The notes beneath the pieces are model-generated. The model made no database searches. It saw only the letters and a list, made by a program, of their open reading frames with translations, and was not told the DNA's origin. Of a stretch of DNA of 64,000 nt, positions 9,901-19,106 are shown one piece after another (the first letter of the stretch is position 1; each line of letters starts with the position of its first letter). This stretch comes from Deltaproteobacteria bacterium (GTDB lineage Bacteria > Desulfobacterota > Desulfuromonadia > Desulfuromonadales > Geopsychrobacteraceae): the NCBI GenBank assembly GCA_024280335.1, contig JAJRQI010000070.1, forward strand, positions 1 to 64,000, read 5' to 3'. A program made the position numbers and the translations under genes.

Positions 9901-9945
9901 ATATTGTTTCGAATCAATACCCCTTCACACACCAAAGGTGATCCG

Positions 9946-11022
9946 ATGAAAAAAACATTCCTGTTGTTACTGCTTCTGCTTAGCGTCTGCCTGTGCAGCA
10001 GCGGTTTCGCTGCCCAGCCAGAAAAAGAAATCAAGGCGGGCTTCATCTATGTCGGCCCGGTCGGTGATGCCGGTTGGACCTACGCCCACGACCAAGGCCG
10101 TCAGGAGATGGAAAAGCTGCCGTTCGTCAAGCCGTCGACCTTTATCGAATCGGTCCCGGAAGGGGCTGAATCGGCCCGGGTCATCAACGGCCTGGTGCGC
10201 AAAGGCGCCAACCTGGTATTTACCACCAGCTTCGGTTACATGGATGCCACCATCGACATTGCCCGCCGCAACAAAGATGTGGTCTTCATGCACTGCTCCG
10301 GCTTCAAGACCGCTGTGAATGTCGGCACCTACTTCGGCCGCATGTACGAACCGCGCTACCTCTCCGGGATCGTCGCCGGCAAAATGACCGAAAAGAACAT
10401 CATCGGCTATGTCGCCGCCTTCCCGATCCCAGAAGTGATCCGCGGGATCAACGCCTTCACCCTCGGCGTCCGCAGTGTGAATCCTCAGGCTGAGGTCAAG
10501 GTGGTCTGGACCCAGACCTGGTTCGATCCGGGCATCGAGCGTGATGCCGCCGACAGTTTGCTCGATGTCGGCGCCGACGTGCTGACCATGCACCAGGATG
10601 CACCAGCCACCATGCAGGCGGCGGAAGCGCGGGGCGCCTATGTTATCGGCTACAACTCCGACATGCGTCATTTTGCTCCCAACGCCTTTTTGACCGCACC
10701 GATCTGGAACTGGGGCGCGCTCTACACCAAGGTTGCCGAAGAAGTCAAAACCGGCACCTGGAAATCTGAGCAGATCTGGTGGGGGATGAAGGAAAACCTG
10801 GTACAGCTGGCCGACTTCAGCAGCAAGGTTCCGGCCGAGGTTCAGGCGCTGGTCGGTGAAAAAGCGGCAGAGATCAAAGCGGGCAGCCTGCATCCCTTTG
10901 CCGGGCCGCTCAAAGACCAGAGCGGAAAAGTGGTCGTTGCTGCCGGTCAGATTCCGGCCGACGGCGACCTGCTCGGCATGAGCTATTTTGTTCAGGGGGT
11001 GCAGGGGACCATCCCCAAATAA
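9946..11022 (+). CDS. BMP-family substrate-binding protein of an ABC importer
   Basis: The product is 358 residues and exported through an N-terminal signal (MKKTFLLLLLLLSVCLCSSG). Cysteines near the signal end leave open a lipid anchor. The body matches the Bmp/PnrA-like periplasmic-binding fold: GFIYVGPVGDAGWTYAH at the start of the mature protein, then TTSFGYMDATIDIARRN. By family these proteins bind purine or other nucleosides. The ATG at 9946 follows AAAGGTGAT and is preferred over 9904. The gene is followed by a hairpin and then the ATPase and two permeases, the standard order for this importer class. Confidence 0.92.
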   Translation: MKKTFLLLLLLLSVCLCSSGFAAQPEKEIKAGFIYVGPVGDAGWTYAHDQGRQEMEKLPFVKPSTFIESVPEGAESARVINGLVRKGANLVFTTSFGYMDATIDIARRNKDVVFMHCSGFKTAVNVGTYFGRMYEPRYLSGIVAGKMTEKNIIGYVAAFPIPEVIRGINAFTLGVRSVNPQAEVKVVWTQTWFDPGIERDAADSLLDVGADVLTMHQDAPATMQAAEARGAYVIGYNSDMRHFAPNAFLTAPIWNWGALYTKVAEEVKTGTWKSEQIWWGMKENLVQLADFSSKVPAEVQALVGEKAAEIKAGSLHPFAGPLKDQSGKVVVAAGQIPADGDLLGMSYFVQGVQGTIPK

Positions 11023-11042
11023 CCACCAGAGTTCAAAATCAT

Positions 11043-11076
11043 GGCACGCTCTGATTTATCGGGGCGTGCCTTTTTA
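11043..11076 (+). terminator. Hairpin between the binding-protein gene and the ATPase gene
   Basis: GGCACGC pairs with GCGTGCC, followed by TTTTTA. The position after a binding-protein gene fits a partial terminator or mRNA-stabilising hairpin that makes the binding protein more abundant than the membrane subunits. Confidence 0.75.
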
Positions 11077-11138
11077 TCACGACACTCTCCAGGTATCACG
11101 GAACGCTTCCTGAGCCTGCGACTTAAAGCCTGCAGCAG

Positions 11139-12665
11139 ATGCCTGATTTCCTGAAAATCGAACATATCCGCAAAACCTTCCCCGGTGTCATTGCTCTGGA
11201 TGATGTCTCCTTTTCGGTGGCGCCCGGTGAGATACACACCCTGCTCGGCGAAAACGGTGCCGGCAAAAGTACCTTGATGAACGTTCTAACCGGTCTTTAT
11301 CATCCCGACAGCGGGGAAATCCGGATCGACGGGCGGCGGCTCAGTTTCACCAGCCCGCGTGATTCACTGGCCTGCGGCATCGGCATGGTTCATCAGCATT
11401 TCATGCTGGTCCCGGCGCACTCGGTCTTTGAGAACATCCTGCTCGCCCTCGACAATCTGCCCAACCTGTTCAGCCGAAAAAAATATAGGGCCCGAATCAA
11501 ACAGTTGATCGACGAATTTCAACTCGACCTCGATCTCGACAGCCCGGTCTGGAAGCTGTCGATCGGCGCTCAGCAATGGATTGAGCTGATCAAACTGCTA
11601 CTGCGCGACTGTCGACTGTTGATCCTTGACGAGCCGACCGCGGTGCTCACCCCGCAGGAGGCCGAGCGACTGTTCAAGGTGCTGCGACAGCTGAAAAAGC
11701 AGGGCAAAAGCATCATCTTCATCTCCCATAAAATGCGCGAGGTGATGGAGATTTCCGATCAGGTGACCATCCTGAAAAAAGGCCGCAGCATCGCCAGCCT
11801 GACGCGCGGCGAATACGACGAGAGAAAACTCGCGGCGTTGATGATCGGTGCCGACAAGATTCCCGAGTGGCAAAAGAACCTGCAGCTGTCCACGCAGATC
11901 AGCCTCGATATTCAACAGCTTTCGGTACGCAACGATCGCGGCCTGTCCGATCTGGAGGATTTCAGCCTGCAGCTGATAAAGGGCGAAATCCTCGGCATTG
12001 CCGGGGTTGCCGGTAACGGCCAAAAAGCACTGGCAGAGGTTTTGACCGGTCTGCGAAAGGCTAGCCACGGCCGGATCATGGCGAACGGCGAGGATCTGAA
12101 CAACAGCAGTGCCAGGCACTCCTACATTGCCGGGATCGCCCATATCCCGGAAGATCGCAAAACCATCGGCATCGCCCCGGATATGAGTATCGACGACAAC
12201 CTGATCATGAAAAGCTTTAAAAACTCCGCTTTTGCCCGTGGGATTTTTCAGGACAAAAAATCGATCCGCCGCAACGCGCAGGAAAAAATTGCCCAATTTG
12301 CCATTAAATCAGGGCCTGAAGGCACTCCGGTTCGTTATCTGTCGGGCGGCAATATCCAGAAGGTGATCATCGCTCGTGAACTGTCGGAAAAACCGGCGGT
12401 GCTGGTCGCCCTCTATCCGACCCGCGGCCTCGATATCGGCAGCGCTGAATATGTCCACAAGGTGATTGCCGATGGCGCCGCACAAGGGATGAGCACCATA
12501 TTGATTGCCGAAGATCTGGACGAACTGCTCAAACTCAGCGATCGGATTGCGGTCATGTTCCGCGGCCGACTGATCGGCTTCGTCGATCCGCAGAACAGCA
12601 GCCGCGAAGAGATCGGCCTGATGATGAGCGGCGAAACTGGTGAAAATGACGGAGGCGAGGCATGA
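11139..12665 (+). CDS. Nucleoside-type ABC importer, duplicated ATPase subunit
   Basis: The product is 508 residues with two ABC domains. The first has Walker A GENGAGKST near 38 and Walker B LLILDEPTA. The second has the degenerate Walker A GVAGNGQKALAEV, signature YLSGGNIQKV and LYPTRGLDIGS, typical of sugar/nucleoside importers of the RbsA/YufO type. The weakened second site is normal for the family. No strong ribosome site is seen before the ATG at 11139. The stop overlaps the next start (ATGA), indicating coupling with the permease genes. Confidence 0.93.
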   Translation: MPDFLKIEHIRKTFPGVIALDDVSFSVAPGEIHTLLGENGAGKSTLMNVLTGLYHPDSGEIRIDGRRLSFTSPRDSLACGIGMVHQHFMLVPAHSVFENILLALDNLPNLFSRKKYRARIKQLIDEFQLDLDLDSPVWKLSIGAQQWIELIKLLLRDCRLLILDEPTAVLTPQEAERLFKVLRQLKKQGKSIIFISHKMREVMEISDQVTILKKGRSIASLTRGEYDERKLAALMIGADKIPEWQKNLQLSTQISLDIQQLSVRNDRGLSDLEDFSLQLIKGEILGIAGVAGNGQKALAEVLTGLRKASHGRIMANGEDLNNSSARHSYIAGIAHIPEDRKTIGIAPDMSIDDNLIMKSFKNSAFARGIFQDKKSIRRNAQEKIAQFAIKSGPEGTPVRYLSGGNIQKVIIARELSEKPAVLVALYPTRGLDIGSAEYVHKVIADGAAQGMSTILIAEDLDELLKLSDRIAVMFRGRLIGFVDPQNSSREEIGLMMSGETGENDGGEA

Positions 12666-13732
12666 AGCTGGTCACCGAGCGCCGCGAAATTTCCTCACCG
12701 CTGCTCCGTTTTAGCGCCCCGCTGATTTCGATCGGCTTCGCCCTGTTTGTCGCCGGATTTCTGCTGCTGGCCAGCGGCGTCAACCCGCTGGAAGCTTACC
12801 GGGAGATCCTCATCGAATCGCTCGGCTCCCTCTACGGGCTGTCGGAAACCCTGGTAAAAACCACCCCGCTGATCTTTGCCGGGCTCGGCGTCTCGCTCGC
12901 CTTTCGCATGCAGATCTGGAATATCGGCGCCGAGGGACAGATCTACATCGGCGCCATGGCAGCTAGCGGTGTGGCGCTCTTTTCCGGCATCGAAAGCCAC
13001 GGGCTGATGCTGCTGACGATGTTTCTCGCCGCCTTTACCTGCGGCGGACTCTGGGCGGGAGTGGCCGGTTTTTTGCGCGCTCGCTGGCAGGTCAACGAAG
13101 TCATCGTCACCCTGCTGATGAACTACATCGCCATCCTGCTGGTCGATTATCTGATTTACGGCCCCTGGAAAGACCCGAAGGGGTTCAACTTTCCCCTTAC
13201 CGCCCAGTTCAGTGATACGGCGCGGCTGGCTGAGTATTTTGATACCCGCCTGCACAGCGGCTTTTTTCTCGCTGTTTTTGTCGCCCTGCTCCTCTACCTG
13301 TTCATGGAGCGCACCATCTGGGGTTACCAGATCAAGGTGATCGGCAGCAATCCGAAAGCCGCCCGCTACGCCGGAATGAAAACCGGCATGGCGATTTTCA
13401 TGGTGCTGTTTTTAAGCGGCGCTATCGCCGGGGTCGCCGGATTCAGTGAGGTCGCCGGATTACAGCACCGGTTGCAGCACGGCATCTCGCCCGGTTACGG
13501 CTATACTGCGATAATCATCGCCTGGCTGGCCAAACGCAGCGCTGGCGGCGTGGTTATCGTCGCCTTTTTGATGGGGGTTCTGCTGGTCGGCGGTGATAGC
13601 CTGCAACTGCTCTGGCAACTGCCGGTCGCCTTTGTTTACGCTTTTCAGGGACTGATCCTGTTCTTCCTACTGGCCTCCGACTTCTTTATCCTGTACCGGG
13701 TCAAGCTGATCAAGGGAGCCGCCGATGCTTGA
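12662..13732 (+). CDS. BMP-type ABC importer permease, first subunit
   Basis: The product is 356 residues and polytopic, with roughly nine to ten hydrophobic segments beginning at residue 20. The N-terminal region has KTTPLIFAGLGVSLAFR and WNIGAEGQIYIGA, hallmarks of the YufP/NupP (BPD_transp_2) family. ATG overlaps the ATPase stop by four bases. It forms the transmembrane channel with the next gene product. Confidence 0.93.
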   Translation: MKLVTERREISSPLLRFSAPLISIGFALFVAGFLLLASGVNPLEAYREILIESLGSLYGLSETLVKTTPLIFAGLGVSLAFRMQIWNIGAEGQIYIGAMAASGVALFSGIESHGLMLLTMFLAAFTCGGLWAGVAGFLRARWQVNEVIVTLLMNYIAILLVDYLIYGPWKDPKGFNFPLTAQFSDTARLAEYFDTRLHSGFFLAVFVALLLYLFMERTIWGYQIKVIGSNPKAARYAGMKTGMAIFMVLFLSGAIAGVAGFSEVAGLQHRLQHGISPGYGYTAIIIAWLAKRSAGGVVIVAFLMGVLLVGGDSLQLLWQLPVAFVYAFQGLILFFLLASDFFILYRVKLIKGAADA

Positions 13733-14645
13733 GATTCTGCTCGATGCCACGGTTCGCGCCGGCACACCGATTCTGTTTGCCACCTTGGGAGCGATCATCA
13801 ACGAGCGGGCCGGGATCATCAACCTCGGCATTGAAGGTTTGATGCTGATCGGCGCGCTGGCCGGATTCGCCGCGACCCACTCCAGCGGTTCACTACTGGT
13901 CGGCGTTTCGGCCGCCTTTGTCGCCGCCTTTGCCGCCGGCAGCATCCATGCCTTCATCACCGTGCAGCTGCGCGGTAATCAGATCGTCAGCGGACTGGCG
14001 TTGACCATGTTCGGCATCGGCATCACCGCCCTGTTCGGTAAACAGCTGGTCGGCTTGACGATCGATGGTTTCGAGCGGGTCGCCGTCCCCGGTCTGTCAC
14101 AACTGCCGGTAGTCGGCAAAGCGATCTTCAACCAGAACCTGTTGATCTATCTCAGTTTTTTTCTGGTAGCAGCCATTTGGCTGTTCTTCTATCGCACCCG
14201 CTGGGGACTGGCGGTGCGAACCCTGGGAGAGAATCCGGCGGCGGCAGATACCTGCGGGGTGCCGGTCAATCTCTATCGCTTTCTGGCGGTAACCAGCGGC
14301 TCCGGTCTGGTCGGCATCGGCGGCGCCTATTTGAGCCTGGCCTCAACGCCGATGTGGATTGAGAACATGTCGGCAGGACGTGGCTGGATCGCCGTGGCGC
14401 TGGTCATTTTTGCCGGTTGGTCGAGCCCCAAGGCGCTGCTCGGCGCCTACCTGTTCGGCGGCATCACTGCCATGCAGTTGCGCTTTCAGGCGCTCGGTAC
14501 CACAGTCAGTGCCCACATTCTGCAAATGCTCCCCTATTTTTTCACCATCATCGTGCTGGTGATCTCGACCCTGCGACTGCAAAAGGGCGCCAGCCAACAA
14601 CCGGAAAGCCTCGGGCTCCCCTATGATCGGGAGGATCGCAAATGA
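13725..14645 (+). CDS. BMP-type ABC importer permease, second subunit
   Basis: The product is 306 residues, polytopic, of the YufQ/NupQ type: PILFATLGAIINERAGIINL near the N-terminus and GLMLIGALAGF after it. It overlaps the first permease by eight bases and the following phosphoribosyltransferase by four. Importer and salvage enzyme are therefore translated as one unit. Confidence 0.93.
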   Translation: MLEILLDATVRAGTPILFATLGAIINERAGIINLGIEGLMLIGALAGFAATHSSGSLLVGVSAAFVAAFAAGSIHAFITVQLRGNQIVSGLALTMFGIGITALFGKQLVGLTIDGFERVAVPGLSQLPVVGKAIFNQNLLIYLSFFLVAAIWLFFYRTRWGLAVRTLGENPAAADTCGVPVNLYRFLAVTSGSGLVGIGGAYLSLASTPMWIENMSAGRGWIAVALVIFAGWSSPKALLGAYLFGGITAMQLRFQALGTTVSAHILQMLPYFFTIIVLVISTLRLQKGASQQPESLGLPYDREDRK

Positions 14646-15178
14646 ACTATGCCGCCCAAACCCTGCTGGAACGGATCAAACGTGACGGGAAAGTCGATGG
14701 CGAGATCATCAAGGTGGATCGCTTTCTCAACCACATGGTCGATCCGCAGTTGATCGATCTGCTCGCCGCCGACATCGCCACCCGCTTTGCCGACAAGGCG
14801 ATCGACAAGCTGCTGACCGCAGAAACCAGCGGCATCATGCTCGCACAAGCGGTCGCCGGGATGCTCGGCGTACCCTTTATCTACGCCAAAAAAAAGCGGC
14901 CGTTGACCATGGGCGAGCACTACGCCGCCGCCAGCTACTCCTTCACCAAACAGGAATCGACCACCCTCTATGTGGCGAAAGAGGTGCTCGGCGCACAAGA
15001 GCGGGTGTTGTTCATCGACGACTTCTTTGCTAAGGGTTCGACCCTCAAGGCGATTGAGGAGATCGTTTCCCAGGCCCACGCGATGCTGGTCGGTGCCGCG
15101 GTGATTATCAACAAGTCGACCCGCCGCGATATCGATGCGATACTGACGCTGGAAGAATTACAGCAGGCGACCCGTTAA
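14642..15178 (+). CDS. xpt: Xanthine phosphoribosyltransferase
   Basis: The product is 178 residues (B. subtilis Xpt has 194). It transfers the phosphoribosyl group of PRPP to xanthine to give XMP. Evidence: LKVDxFLNHxxDP-like start (IKVDRFLNHMVDPQLID), ETSGIMLAQAVA, YSFTKQESTT and the PRPP-binding loop RVLFIDDFFAKGST. The start overlaps the permease stop (ATGA). Together with the importer upstream this indicates purine uptake and salvage. Xanthine versus another purine base cannot be settled from sequence alone. Confidence 0.85.
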   Translation: MNYAAQTLLERIKRDGKVDGEIIKVDRFLNHMVDPQLIDLLAADIATRFADKAIDKLLTAETSGIMLAQAVAGMLGVPFIYAKKKRPLTMGEHYAAASYSFTKQESTTLYVAKEVLGAQERVLFIDDFFAKGSTLKAIEEIVSQAHAMLVGAAVIINKSTRRDIDAILTLEELQQATR

Positions 15179-16337: not shown

Positions 16338-16388
16338 ACAAAAACACAGCAAGCCGCCTGATTTTGAGGCGGCTTGCTGTGTTTTTGT
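16338..16388. terminator. Bidirectional terminator between convergent genes
   Basis: ACAAAAACACAGCAAGCCGC pairs with its exact complement ending in TGTTTTTGT, giving a stem of more than 20 bp around ATTTTG. It serves both the plus-strand SH3 gene and the minus-strand ATP-grasp gene. Confidence 0.92.
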
Positions 16389-16452: not shown

Positions 16453-17568
16453 CTAAACCAAGCGGATCGGAGCAAAGCCGCCGCCTTCGGTGCGCAGGTT
16501 GGTGACCTGCCCCTGATAGAGACGGGCACCGACCCCGAGTAGTCGATCGCGGTAGATAAACAAGCGCAGATCAACCTTGAACCCCTGCCCGGCAGAATCT
16601 TTTTCAACTGAGGGCAGAACCAGATCCTGCACCAGCATGGTCTCCGCGTGCTGTTCGGCAAAACGCTTGCGGGTGATGCTTTTGCCCAACAGCACCCCGC
16701 GACTACCGAAACGGGTGACCGGTTTAAATACCAGTTTTTTCCGTTGTTGCCACAAAAGATCAGGATCGCAGTCGGCCATCAGGCGGCTACGCGGCACTAG
16801 GGTGACCAGCAATTGCCGCTCTTCCTCGTTCAGGCCAAGCGCCGCTAATGCGCTGTCGTCCGACCAGAGAATCATCCGCCGCTTGTCCGCCAGCAGACCG
16901 TAAGCAAAGGGATTCGGCGACAGGCAGACGGCTCCGGCCAGATAGGCAGTCCTGACCGCAGCCAGCGGTGGCTCTTCCAGAAAAAAATCACAGTGTCGAT
17001 TGTAGATCAGATCGACCGGCTTACCGGCCAGACAGACCGCGCTTGCGTCAGCCTGCAACTGCTCCGGGGCAACAATTTCAACCTCCAGCCCCTGTTCCCG
17101 CAACCAGTCACGACAGGCAACCGTTTCCGGGTAGAGGGGTTGTTCGGCGGGATTTTCGTCCAGAATGACGATCCGCCGCAGCGGACGCTGCCCCGCAGAG
17201 AAGCTGTGCCACTCCTGCTCGAAACTGCTGAACAGACGCTTCTTCAAGCGTTTCGACAGGTCGGTCGGGTAGTGCCGATGGGATTGAGCTTCACTCAGCC
17301 AAGCGATATACCCGCCACCGGCATTGGTGTTCACCTCGATCAATCGCGGTCCTGCTGCGGTCAGATGAAAATCGTAGCCCATCATCAAAGCATCATGACC
17401 GGGATCGAAACGGGCAATCTTCGGCAACTGCGGAAAAATCTGCTGCCGGTAACTCTCCTGCCGACTCAGGCGGAATAACAACCGGACCAGCCGCAGCATC
17501 TGCAGTAAATCTTTGCGCGGCAGCAACGCGGGGAGCGTACTGATTGGAAGTGGTTGTAACGGAGACAT
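16453..17568 (-). CDS. ATP-grasp-like protein of unknown substrate
   Basis: The product is 371 residues. Signs of an ATP-grasp ligase fold are RLIEVNTNAGGGYIAW (about 95-111), a central DLIYNRHCDFFLE, PNPFAYGLLADKRRM, then LVFKPVTRFGSRGVLLGK (nucleotide-binding loop) and KVDLRLFIYRDRLLGVGARL with NLRTEGGG near the C-terminus. No signal peptide or membrane segment. The substrate is unknown. It lies 12 bases downstream of a LOG-family gene on the same strand, so the two are probably one operon and may act on the same small molecule. Functional inference is weak; the fold call is moderate. Confidence 0.7.
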   Translation of the reverse strand: MSPLQPLPISTLPALLPRKDLLQMLRLVRLLFRLSRQESYRQQIFPQLPKIARFDPGHDALMMGYDFHLTAAGPRLIEVNTNAGGGYIAWLSEAQSHRHYPTDLSKRLKKRLFSSFEQEWHSFSAGQRPLRRIVILDENPAEQPLYPETVACRDWLREQGLEVEIVAPEQLQADASAVCLAGKPVDLIYNRHCDFFLEEPPLAAVRTAYLAGAVCLSPNPFAYGLLADKRRMILWSDDSALAALGLNEEERQLLVTLVPRSRLMADCDPDLLWQQRKKLVFKPVTRFGSRGVLLGKSITRKRFAEQHAETMLVQDLVLPSVEKDSAGQGFKVDLRLFIYRDRLLGVGARLYQGQVTNLRTEGGGFAPIRLV

Positions 17569-17580
17569 TTTCCGCCCGAT

Positions 17581-18615
17581 CTAGAAGGAGTTGATGCGCC
17601 GGATGAACGCCTTGAGTAGCCCGTAGCTGCGCCGGTTGAACTCCATGGTCAAGCGCGGCAATTGCAGCAGATTCGGCTGGTCGGCCTCTTCCGGCAGGGC
17701 GTTGGTCAGCCGCATGCTGCCACCGGGGGCGAGGATTGCGCCGAACTCACTGCTGAGGACTTGCAGGTGATCAGTGTCCAGCACCTTGTTGAGGCGAATC
17801 ACCAGCTTTCCTTTGACAAAGCGCAGAGAATGGTAGTTGCGGTAGAAATCATCGATATACTGCACCGCCTCCAGTGGATCTTTGGTGATGGTGAACAGGG
17901 CAAAATCCTCACCGCTGATCAGACCGCGTTTCAGCAGCGCATCACGGGTGAAATCAAAGAACATATCCCAGTAGCCGCCGTTGTCATCGTCGATCATGAT
18001 CAGCGGGATCGGCGGGGTTTTGCCGGTCTGAATCAGAGTCATGACCTCCATCCCCTCATCCAGGGTACCGAAGCCGCCGGGGAACAGCACCACCGCATCT
18101 GCTTCTTTCAGGAAGGCGACCTTGCGATTGAAGAAGTATTTGTAGTTGATAACCTTGTCGCTGTCCTTCATCACCGGGTTCATATCCTGCTCGAACGGCA
18201 GATCGATATTGACGGCAAAGGAATTGTCCGCCCCGGCCCCTTCGTTTCCGGCCAGCATGATCCCCGGACCGCCACCGGTGATCACCATATAGTTACGCTC
18301 CGCCAGCAACCGGGCAAACTTTACGCACTTCTGGTAGATCGGTTCGCTCGGTTCGGTGCGGGCGCTGCCGAAGATACTGACCTTTTTTCGATCCCGATAA
18401 GGAGCAAAGACCTTGTTGGTAAAACGCATCTCCTTCATCGTCGTGCGCATCAGTTTCTGATCGGCCAGGTAGTCGTTCTCCTGTCCCGATTTCAACGCAC
18501 CGAGAATCATCTGGCGGATCATCTCCGGGTGATGTACCTGGGTCCGCTGCAGCAGATCATCAATCAGGACGTCGATCTCACCGTTGCTCCGATCAAAACT
18601 CAATTTCATGCTCAT
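17581..18615 (-). CDS. LOG-family (TIGR00730-like) nucleotide hydrolase homologue
   Basis: The product is 344 residues, longer than the usual ~190-residue LOG proteins because of about 90 extra N-terminal and 80 C-terminal residues. The core has VSIFGSART, VITGGGPGIMLAGNEGA and the signature PGGFGTLDEGMEV. Standard LOG enzymes cut cytokinin or purine nucleoside 5-prime-monophosphates to base and ribose phosphate. The long form may use another substrate. Start ATG at 18615 follows AGGAG; the in-frame ATG at 18609 is an alternative. It is followed at 12 bases by the ATP-grasp gene. Confidence 0.85.
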   Translation of the reverse strand: MSMKLSFDRSNGEIDVLIDDLLQRTQVHHPEMIRQMILGALKSGQENDYLADQKLMRTTMKEMRFTNKVFAPYRDRKKVSIFGSARTEPSEPIYQKCVKFARLLAERNYMVITGGGPGIMLAGNEGAGADNSFAVNIDLPFEQDMNPVMKDSDKVINYKYFFNRKVAFLKEADAVVLFPGGFGTLDEGMEVMTLIQTGKTPPIPLIMIDDDNGGYWDMFFDFTRDALLKRGLISGEDFALFTITKDPLEAVQYIDDFYRNYHSLRFVKGKLVIRLNKVLDTDHLQVLSSEFGAILAPGGSMRLTNALPEEADQPNLLQLPRLTMEFNRRSYGLLKAFIRRINSF

Positions 18616-18659: not shown

Positions 18660-18702
18660 AAAAATTCGGCAGCACAACCTGAAAGTCGTGCTGCCGAAAA
18701 AA
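18660..18702 (-). terminator. Terminator of RNase P RNA
   Basis: CGGCAGCAC (18667-18675) pairs with GTGCTGCCG (18688-18696), with a T-run on the minus strand. It lies just past the mature 3-prime end of rnpB. Confidence 0.85.
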
Positions 18703-18714
18703 GTGGCCAAAGAA

Positions 18715-19106
18715 GTCCGTAAGCCGAGTTTTGTTCCCCGCAGAAGTTACCCGCTGCGGGGCGATGATCATTCATCTAGGACCGCCGTTGCCGACGGCCT
18801 CAAGCAACCAGACCCGGGAACTTCGGACGGACCGCCCTCAAATGTTCCCCTATTCGGTCTTGCTCCGGATGGGGTTTACCGAGCTTCCGACGTCACCATC
18901 GGAACTGGTGAGCTCTTACCTCACCCTTTCACCCTTACCCGCCGGCACCCAAAGGCAGCGGCGGGCGGTCTTCTCTCTGTGGCACTTTCCCTGGGGTCAC
19001 CCCCGGTCCCCGTTAGGGACCATCCTGTCCTGCGGAGCCCGGACTTTCCTCCCGTCCACCTTGGCATAAAGCCGGTGAACCAGCGATCATCTGTCCTTCT
19101 TTGACC
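18715..19106 (-). ncRNA. rnpB: RNase P RNA
   Basis: On the minus strand the conserved core GGAGGAAAGTCCGGGC is visible near 19050, with AGGGTGAGGTAAGAGC-type and GACAGGATGG segments and a terminal ACAAAACTCGGCTTACGGAC. The ends are set by the P1 helix: GGTCAAAGAAG at the 5-prime end pairs fully with CTTCTTTGGCC at the 3-prime end. This gives 392 nt, a bacterial type A length. It processes tRNA 5-prime ends with protein C5. Open frames within it are not genes. It starts only nine bases after the zinc-ribbon gene. Confidence 0.95.

Follow-up and report, generated by a model that had tools for sequence, protein, structure and literature searches.

A candidate glutathione synthetase of the ATP-grasp fold, not orthologous to GshB, encoded beside a LOG-family gene in Geopsychrobacteraceae

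Our analysis of a two-gene locus from Geopsychrobacteraceae points to an ATP-grasp ligase as a candidate glutathione synthetase that is not orthologous to bacterial GshB, an assignment to which we give a probability of roughly 0.55. The broader proposition, that this ligase uses gamma-glutamylcysteine or glutathione at all, appears quite probable. The window, by which we mean the whole 64,000-nucleotide (nt) stretch analyzed (GenBank assembly GCA_024280335.1, contig JAJRQI010000070.1), carries the ligase gene at positions 16453 to 17568 of the minus strand (371 amino acids [aa]), downstream of a minus-strand gene at 17581 to 18615 encoding a LOG-family phosphoribohydrolase-like protein (344 aa). 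Both open reading frames are real, and the gap of 12 nt between 17568 and 17581 agrees with an earlier sequence-only reading of this DNA. That reading had also joined the two proteins in one small-molecule pathway, for example one that builds or trims a nucleotide or peptide conjugate. Such a two-enzyme pathway is unsupported, and it is the ligase that is worth pursuing. The established part of the case consists of the open reading frames, the predicted fold, the invariant catalytic residues, and the co-occurrence of the ligase with GCS2 (glutamate-cysteine ligase, PF04107), the first glutathione enzyme. The ligase is a candidate for the missing second step because its fold is like that of the eukaryotic synthetases and because its occurrence follows that of GCS2.

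Predicted fold and active site of the ligase

The ATP-grasp protein falls below every Pfam and NCBIfam cutoff. Its score against PF04174 (CP_ATPgrasp_1) is 10.7 bits, where the cutoff is 23.1, and the search with PF14403 (CP_ATPgrasp_2) returned no row for the window protein, which thus belongs to neither family on these scores. We aligned it with the proteins of 66 of 80 related loci (alignment A1, 67 rows), leaving out near-copies, truncated sequences, and sequences with a stop (L069, L073, L074, L078, L079, L082, L084, L088, L089, L093, L118, L122, L141, and L142). PF14403 was matched by 31 of the 67 rows at an E value of ≤0.1, and CP_ATPgrasp_2 is the closest known group by sequence when the ligase family is compared with it as a profile (hhalign probability, 96.6; E value, 6.2e-10). 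The IEVN motif of the ligase lies before the ATP-binding lysines, which is the circularly permuted order. Members of CP_ATPgrasp_1/2 (PF04174/PF14403; solved structure 3n6x, 19% identity, Z score of 24.4) are nonetheless about 480 to 510 aa long, against 371 aa for the ligase. By these comparisons, the ligase is related to CP_ATPgrasp_1/2 but belongs to a separate family.

An AlphaFold2 model built from the 67-row alignment had a mean pLDDT of 92.7 and a pTM of 0.92. In a Foldseek search with this model, yeast glutathione synthetase was the top row (E value, 9.1e-16), followed by the human enzyme (E value below 1e-14). The top five VIA-align rows were all glutathione or homoglutathione synthetases, with 342 to 355 residues aligned: soybean homoglutathione synthetase (3kal; Z score, 28.5), the potato enzyme (28.1), the human enzyme (27.7 and 26.8), and the yeast enzyme (26.2). 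A nematode synthetase-like protein (25.8), YjfC (25.6), and glutathionylspermidine synthetase (25.0) came next. The predicted fold is thus that of the eukaryotic glutathione synthetases (2hgs, 1m0w, and 5oes, with 3kal), and the likeness extends over its whole length (Z scores of 26.2 to 28.5) and, by eye, to the E-x-N metal motif. In sequence, however, the ligase is about 100 residues shorter and only 12 to 15% identical, and the Pfam models of the eukaryotic enzyme (GSH_synth_ATP and GSH_synthase) are absent from the eight families listed for the 67 rows at an E value of ≤0.1. Against a profile of the middle region of the glutathione synthetases, the match was weak (probability, 5.6%; E value, 0.0068); it paired Y-x-R191 of the ligase with YFR267 of human 2hgs and K229 with K305. 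Bacterial GshB (PF02955, TIGR01380) resembles the ligase in its proposed reaction, and the occurrence of the two is partly complementary, but its chain order differs and it has no sequence match; Escherichia coli GshB (1gsa) aligns over 210 residues at a Z score of 9.2, covering ligase residues 130 to 371 only.

The substrate of the ligase does not follow from its fold, since YgiC, YjfC, and Cp1B have the same one. Glutathionylspermidine and trypanothione synthetases (Z scores of 21 to 25) share it as well, together with YgiC/YjfC (up to 25.6), although the ligase has no amidase domain and PF03738 is not among the families listed for its 67 rows. Cp1B (9cjn; Z score, 21.8), from the E-64 pathway, is in turn a fungal protein with a natural-product substrate.

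Within the active site, E78, N80, D66, D137, Q143, R191, K229, K282, Q314, D333, R335, R349, Q354, and T356 are invariant across the 67 rows and within each group taken separately. As assigned by motif, K229, K282, E78, N80, D333, and R335 would supply the ATP lysines and the metal-binding residues. The sequence-only reading had placed the protein in small-molecule metabolism as an enzyme resembling an ATP-grasp ligase, a description that the predicted ATP-grasp fold and the invariance of the ATP and metal residues support; a complete lack of nucleotide-binding residues, which by that reading would have refuted it, was not observed.

We take the gamma-Glu-Cys pocket of human glutathione synthetase to consist of R125, E214, N216, Q220, R267, and Y270. 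R191 of the ligase pairs with human R267 in the weak profile alignment, and D137 and Q143, both invariant, are spaced like E214 and Q220 by eye. At the place of human R125, again by eye, the ligase has an invariant glycine, G64, and a motif alignment by eye puts this glycine at the position of an arginine conserved in known synthetases. According to one report (PMC12568646), Cp1B needs R139, D141, E163, and N165 for activity and has these residues in common with homoglutathione synthetase. The last three are matched, by eye, by D66, E78, and N80 of the ligase, and G64 stands where Cp1B has R139. For the potato synthetase, a second report (PMC5919673) describes an arginine that holds the substrate cysteine and charged side chains that hold the glutamate. 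The missing arginine at G64 appears to be a real weakness of the glutathione synthetase proposal.

Occurrence with glutamate-cysteine ligase and GshB

Across 146 genomes of the class (Desulfuromonadia), we found GCS2 in 61 and the ligase in 58. All 58 ligase carriers have GCS2, and 85 genomes have neither gene. The GCS2 protein of the window genome aligns along its entire length with the plant-type glutamate-cysteine ligase model TIGR01436, scoring 406 bits, below the cutoff of 463. Only three GCS2-positive genomes lack the ligase: G071 and G112 carry an ordinary GshB, and G129, which belongs to another family, has a 386-aa open frame. Within the order (75 genomes), 58 genomes have both genes, 2 have GCS2 alone, none has the ligase alone, and 15 have neither. 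Fisher tests of the association gave P values of 6e-14 for the order and 1e-37 for the class, both uncorrected for relatedness. Mapped onto a LOG tree covering 88 genomes, the ligase shows 6 changes and GCS2 shows 4, and a tree-aware test found three independent pairs on supported branches (mean of 2.5 concordant, 0 contrary; P = 0.25), which are too few contrasts for significance. In G103 and G130, the ligase is truly absent from its place behind LOG, where other genes are found and no contig end occurs; GCS2 is absent from both genomes as well. The carrier counts include ligase genes that are truncated, split, or broken in assembly (G051, G063, G087, G136, G143, and G145). In draft genomes, some copies are interrupted by a stop codon or have their reading frame split (L088, L093, G145, and G087), which may reflect either sequencing error or decay.

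We also examined GshB in these genomes. A PF02955 match of more than 150 bits is present in 15 of the 146 genomes, all of them GCS2 positive, and 13 of the 15, including the window genome, are ligase carriers. The other 45 of the 58 carriers have no such match; we count among them G087, in which GshB is uncertain given a 42-residue match (62 bits) at a contig end. The carriers without GshB include G083, a genome from the same genus as the window. Weaker matches were considered as hidden GshB and rejected, as the five examined were all RimK (four above the cutoff of 331 and one at 329.9). Genome G043, presumably Pelobacter carbinolicus, encodes the ligase (57% identity) and GCS2, and its PF02955 matches are weak, at 66.3 bits (RimK) and 21.4 bits.

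Judged by sequence identity, the strong PF02955 proteins of the class are of two kinds. The GshB-like protein of the window genome (L206:6941-8023, minus strand, on G000:C5; 360 aa) falls below all three glutathione synthase cutoffs and is 84% identical to the copy in G008 and 67% identical to that in G039. Its gene adjoins an N-formylglutamate amidohydrolase-like gene in the window genome and in G039, and the two genes are possibly a separate ATP-grasp cassette. Eight other strong PF02955 proteins are 31 to 34% identical to the window copy, and the three that were scanned all pass PRK05246; this comparison left out G006, G012, and G095.

The ligase is also found outside this class. In Magnetococcia, the class of G148, it is present in 42 of 48 genomes; strong PF02955 matches occur in 6 of the 48, 5 of them carriers, so that 37 of the 42 carriers have no match above 150 bits. 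GCS2 accompanies the ligase in 15 of 19 carriers of the Magnetococcales and is missing from 4. In Methylococcales, all 10 ligase carriers have GshB (255 to 267 bits) and none has GCS2, while the active-site columns of their ligases look the same as elsewhere. These bacteria may use the other glutamate-cysteine ligase family (PF04262), and their ATP-grasp ligase is either redundant or has some different role. In the class of G146, at least 28 of 369 genomes match the ligase profile and at least 13, including G146, do so at over 300 bits, both counts being lower bounds from a search that scored the best five candidates per genome. Twelve of these 13 (302 to 359 bits) hold a more distant sister subfamily, whose open frames are longer; roughly half of the profile matches in this class are weak. 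Weak matches sampled from the classes of G146 and G148 comprised four CP_ATPgrasp_2 proteins and one GSP_synth protein. Several members of the sister subfamily (L168, L171, L172, L174, L176, and L177) have an N-terminal stretch with an LNxxCxC-like motif.

Proposed reaction and its alternatives

As an ATP- and Mg-dependent peptide ligase, the enzyme would take gamma-glutamylcysteine from glutamate-cysteine ligase, presumably activate it by converting the carboxylate to an acyl phosphate, and join the activated carboxylate to an amine, most likely that of glycine, yielding glutathione. We see about even odds that bacteria have, in addition to GshB and the fused GshF, a third structural answer to the final step of glutathione synthesis, namely, a compact, circularly permuted ATP-grasp family with the eukaryotic synthetase fold that finishes glutathione in many members of Desulfuromonadales and Magnetococcia with glutamate-cysteine ligase but no recognizable GshB. 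Several observations weigh against a glutathione synthetase: the strong PF02955 match in 13 of 58 carriers, including the window genome itself; the Methylococcales carriers, all 10 with GshB, none with GCS2, and all with the same active-site columns; the 4 of 19 Magnetococcales carriers without GCS2; the invariant G64 in place of a conserved arginine (by eye); the weak middle-region profile match alongside the unmatched Pfam eukaryotic models; and the tree-aware P value of 0.25 from three independent pairs.

One alternative is that the ligase acts on gamma-glutamylcysteine or glutathione to make some other thiol, such as an amide or a conjugate with a polyamine, beta-alanine, or another compound. 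Such a product would explain why GshB is retained in some carriers, namely, the 13 in the class and the 10 in Methylococcales, and it is in keeping with the fold that the ligase has in common with glutathionylspermidine and trypanothione synthetases and YgiC/YjfC and with a homoglutathione synthetase (3kal) as the single best structural row. Against it, 45 of the 58 carriers would be left without a recognizable means of finishing glutathione, and within the order, the ligase has been lost with GCS2 kept only where an ordinary GshB exists (G071 and G112). On balance, we regard this alternative as unlikely.

Slightly less probable still is an unrelated function for this circularly permuted ATP-grasp ligase, as a peptide or natural-product ligase, with its tie to GCS2 reflecting shared descent. 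The best profile relation of the ligase, to CP_ATPgrasp_2, would fit such a role, as would the small number of independent gain and loss events and the sister subfamily in at least 12 of 369 genomes of the class of G146, which has no shared neighbor in the ten loci read. The neighbors of the ligase elsewhere also differ (an MFS transporter in one lineage, an aldolase and an aminotransferase in another). Shared descent, however, sits poorly with co-occurrence in 58 of 58 carriers through several parallel losses and with the reappearance of GCS2 in 15 of 19 Magnetococcales carriers.

The LOG-family neighbor and the meaning of the ligase

The upstream protein is a genuine LOG-family member, scoring 87.8 bits against PF03641 (cutoff, 27) and 96.7 bits against TIGR00730 (cutoff, 96.35), and its nearest solved structures are bacterial cytokinin-riboside phosphoribohydrolases (5wq3; E value, 3e-38; residues 71 to 259). 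PGGxGTxxE is the motif of the family, in which an RK pair is likewise expected; the corresponding P179, G180, G181, G183, T184, and E187, along with R164 and K165, are invariant in 37 aligned rows. The long extensions remarked on in the sequence-only reading do exist, adding about 75 N-terminal and 88 C-terminal residues to a core at about residues 77 to 255. They are nevertheless the normal class-wide form rather than special to the pair, because LOG proteins of 145 of 146 class genomes align end to end, the best matches being 56 to 100% identical across nearly all 344 residues. LOG is a class-wide housekeeping gene and probably a passenger at this locus. A defense role for the pair was rejected, as neither protein had a match in PADLOC.

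Directly upstream of the LOG gene lies the RNase P RNA gene rnpB (positions 18705 to 19102, minus strand; RF00010, 308 bits), and a pattern scan places a terminator-like hairpin between the two (18665 to 18698, minus strand). Beyond the 3' end of the ATP-grasp gene, a 22-bp hairpin followed by a T run (16338 to 16388, minus strand) is a likely terminator; it was not picked up by the pattern scan and has a folding energy of -41.6 kcal/mol (z score, -8.1). Because terminator-like hairpins flank the pair, LOG and the ligase may share a single transcript. A promoter scan gave nothing convincing (2 sites, against 1.0 expected). Elsewhere in the window, positions 9904 to 15178 of the plus strand encode a BMP-family-like lipoprotein, an ABC ATPase, two permeases, and then a phosphoribosyltransferase-like protein, a set that, from its translations, resembles a nucleoside/purine uptake operon.

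Conservation of the pair holds within the family and fails beyond it. Taking the best LOG match per genome, LOG adjoins the ligase in 17 of the 58 class carriers, precisely those belonging to Geopsychrobacteraceae (17 of 17; gaps of -1 to 39 nt), and in none of the remaining 41, a count that is the same for the order. Among the 80 related loci from named genomes, 28 show the adjacency, and it changes only once on a tree of 67 ligases (support, 86). The pairing is therefore lineage specific and a single placement event, not a sign of a common reaction, because it has one origin on the ligase tree and LOG occurs whether or not a genome has the ligase (87 of 88 class genomes that lack the ligase have LOG). 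A joint pathway for trimming a nucleotide or peptide and conjugating it is consequently very improbable, despite the perfect adjacency within the family and the hairpins on both sides of the pair, and was rejected as the main reading; it is glutamate-cysteine ligase, not LOG, that the ligase tracks. In Geopsychrobacteraceae, the ligase gene would thus have been placed behind LOG, perhaps within one transcript, with LOG itself standing outside the ligase reaction.

Elsewhere, the neighbors of the ligase are heterogeneous, including an MFS transporter in Magnetococcales and, in some Desulfuromonadales, a YiiD thioesterase, a class II aldolase, and a PatB-like aminotransferase. Conserved neighbors were dropped as a functional clue, since they differ between lineages. 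In some of these genomes (as at L118:3503-6918, plus strand), genes for the YiiD-type thioesterase, class II aldolase, and PatB-like aminotransferase are closely spaced and followed by the ligase, perhaps as an operon with a link to the metabolism of cysteine or sulfur. Apparent ligase gene fusions (L124, L274, L275, L123, L083, and L273) were rejected, the upstream part of each long frame reading as out-of-frame sequence.

Among the papers listed in literature searches of an open-license library, none, judged by its title and the opening of its abstract, describes this ligase family. In the accessible part of a 2012 report (PMC3543383), glutathione enzymes are given as previously unidentified in Geobacteraceae, and Pelobacter carbinolicus is credited with at least the first of them, with no second named there; glutathione synthesis in Desulfuromonadales is to that extent on record as incomplete. 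If the ligase is indeed a glutathione synthetase, genome sequences would allow one to predict which thiol is used by metal- and sulfur-reducing bacteria and by magnetotactic cocci, and bacteria would offer a relative, by fold, of the eukaryotic synthetase with which to ask about the origin of that enzyme.
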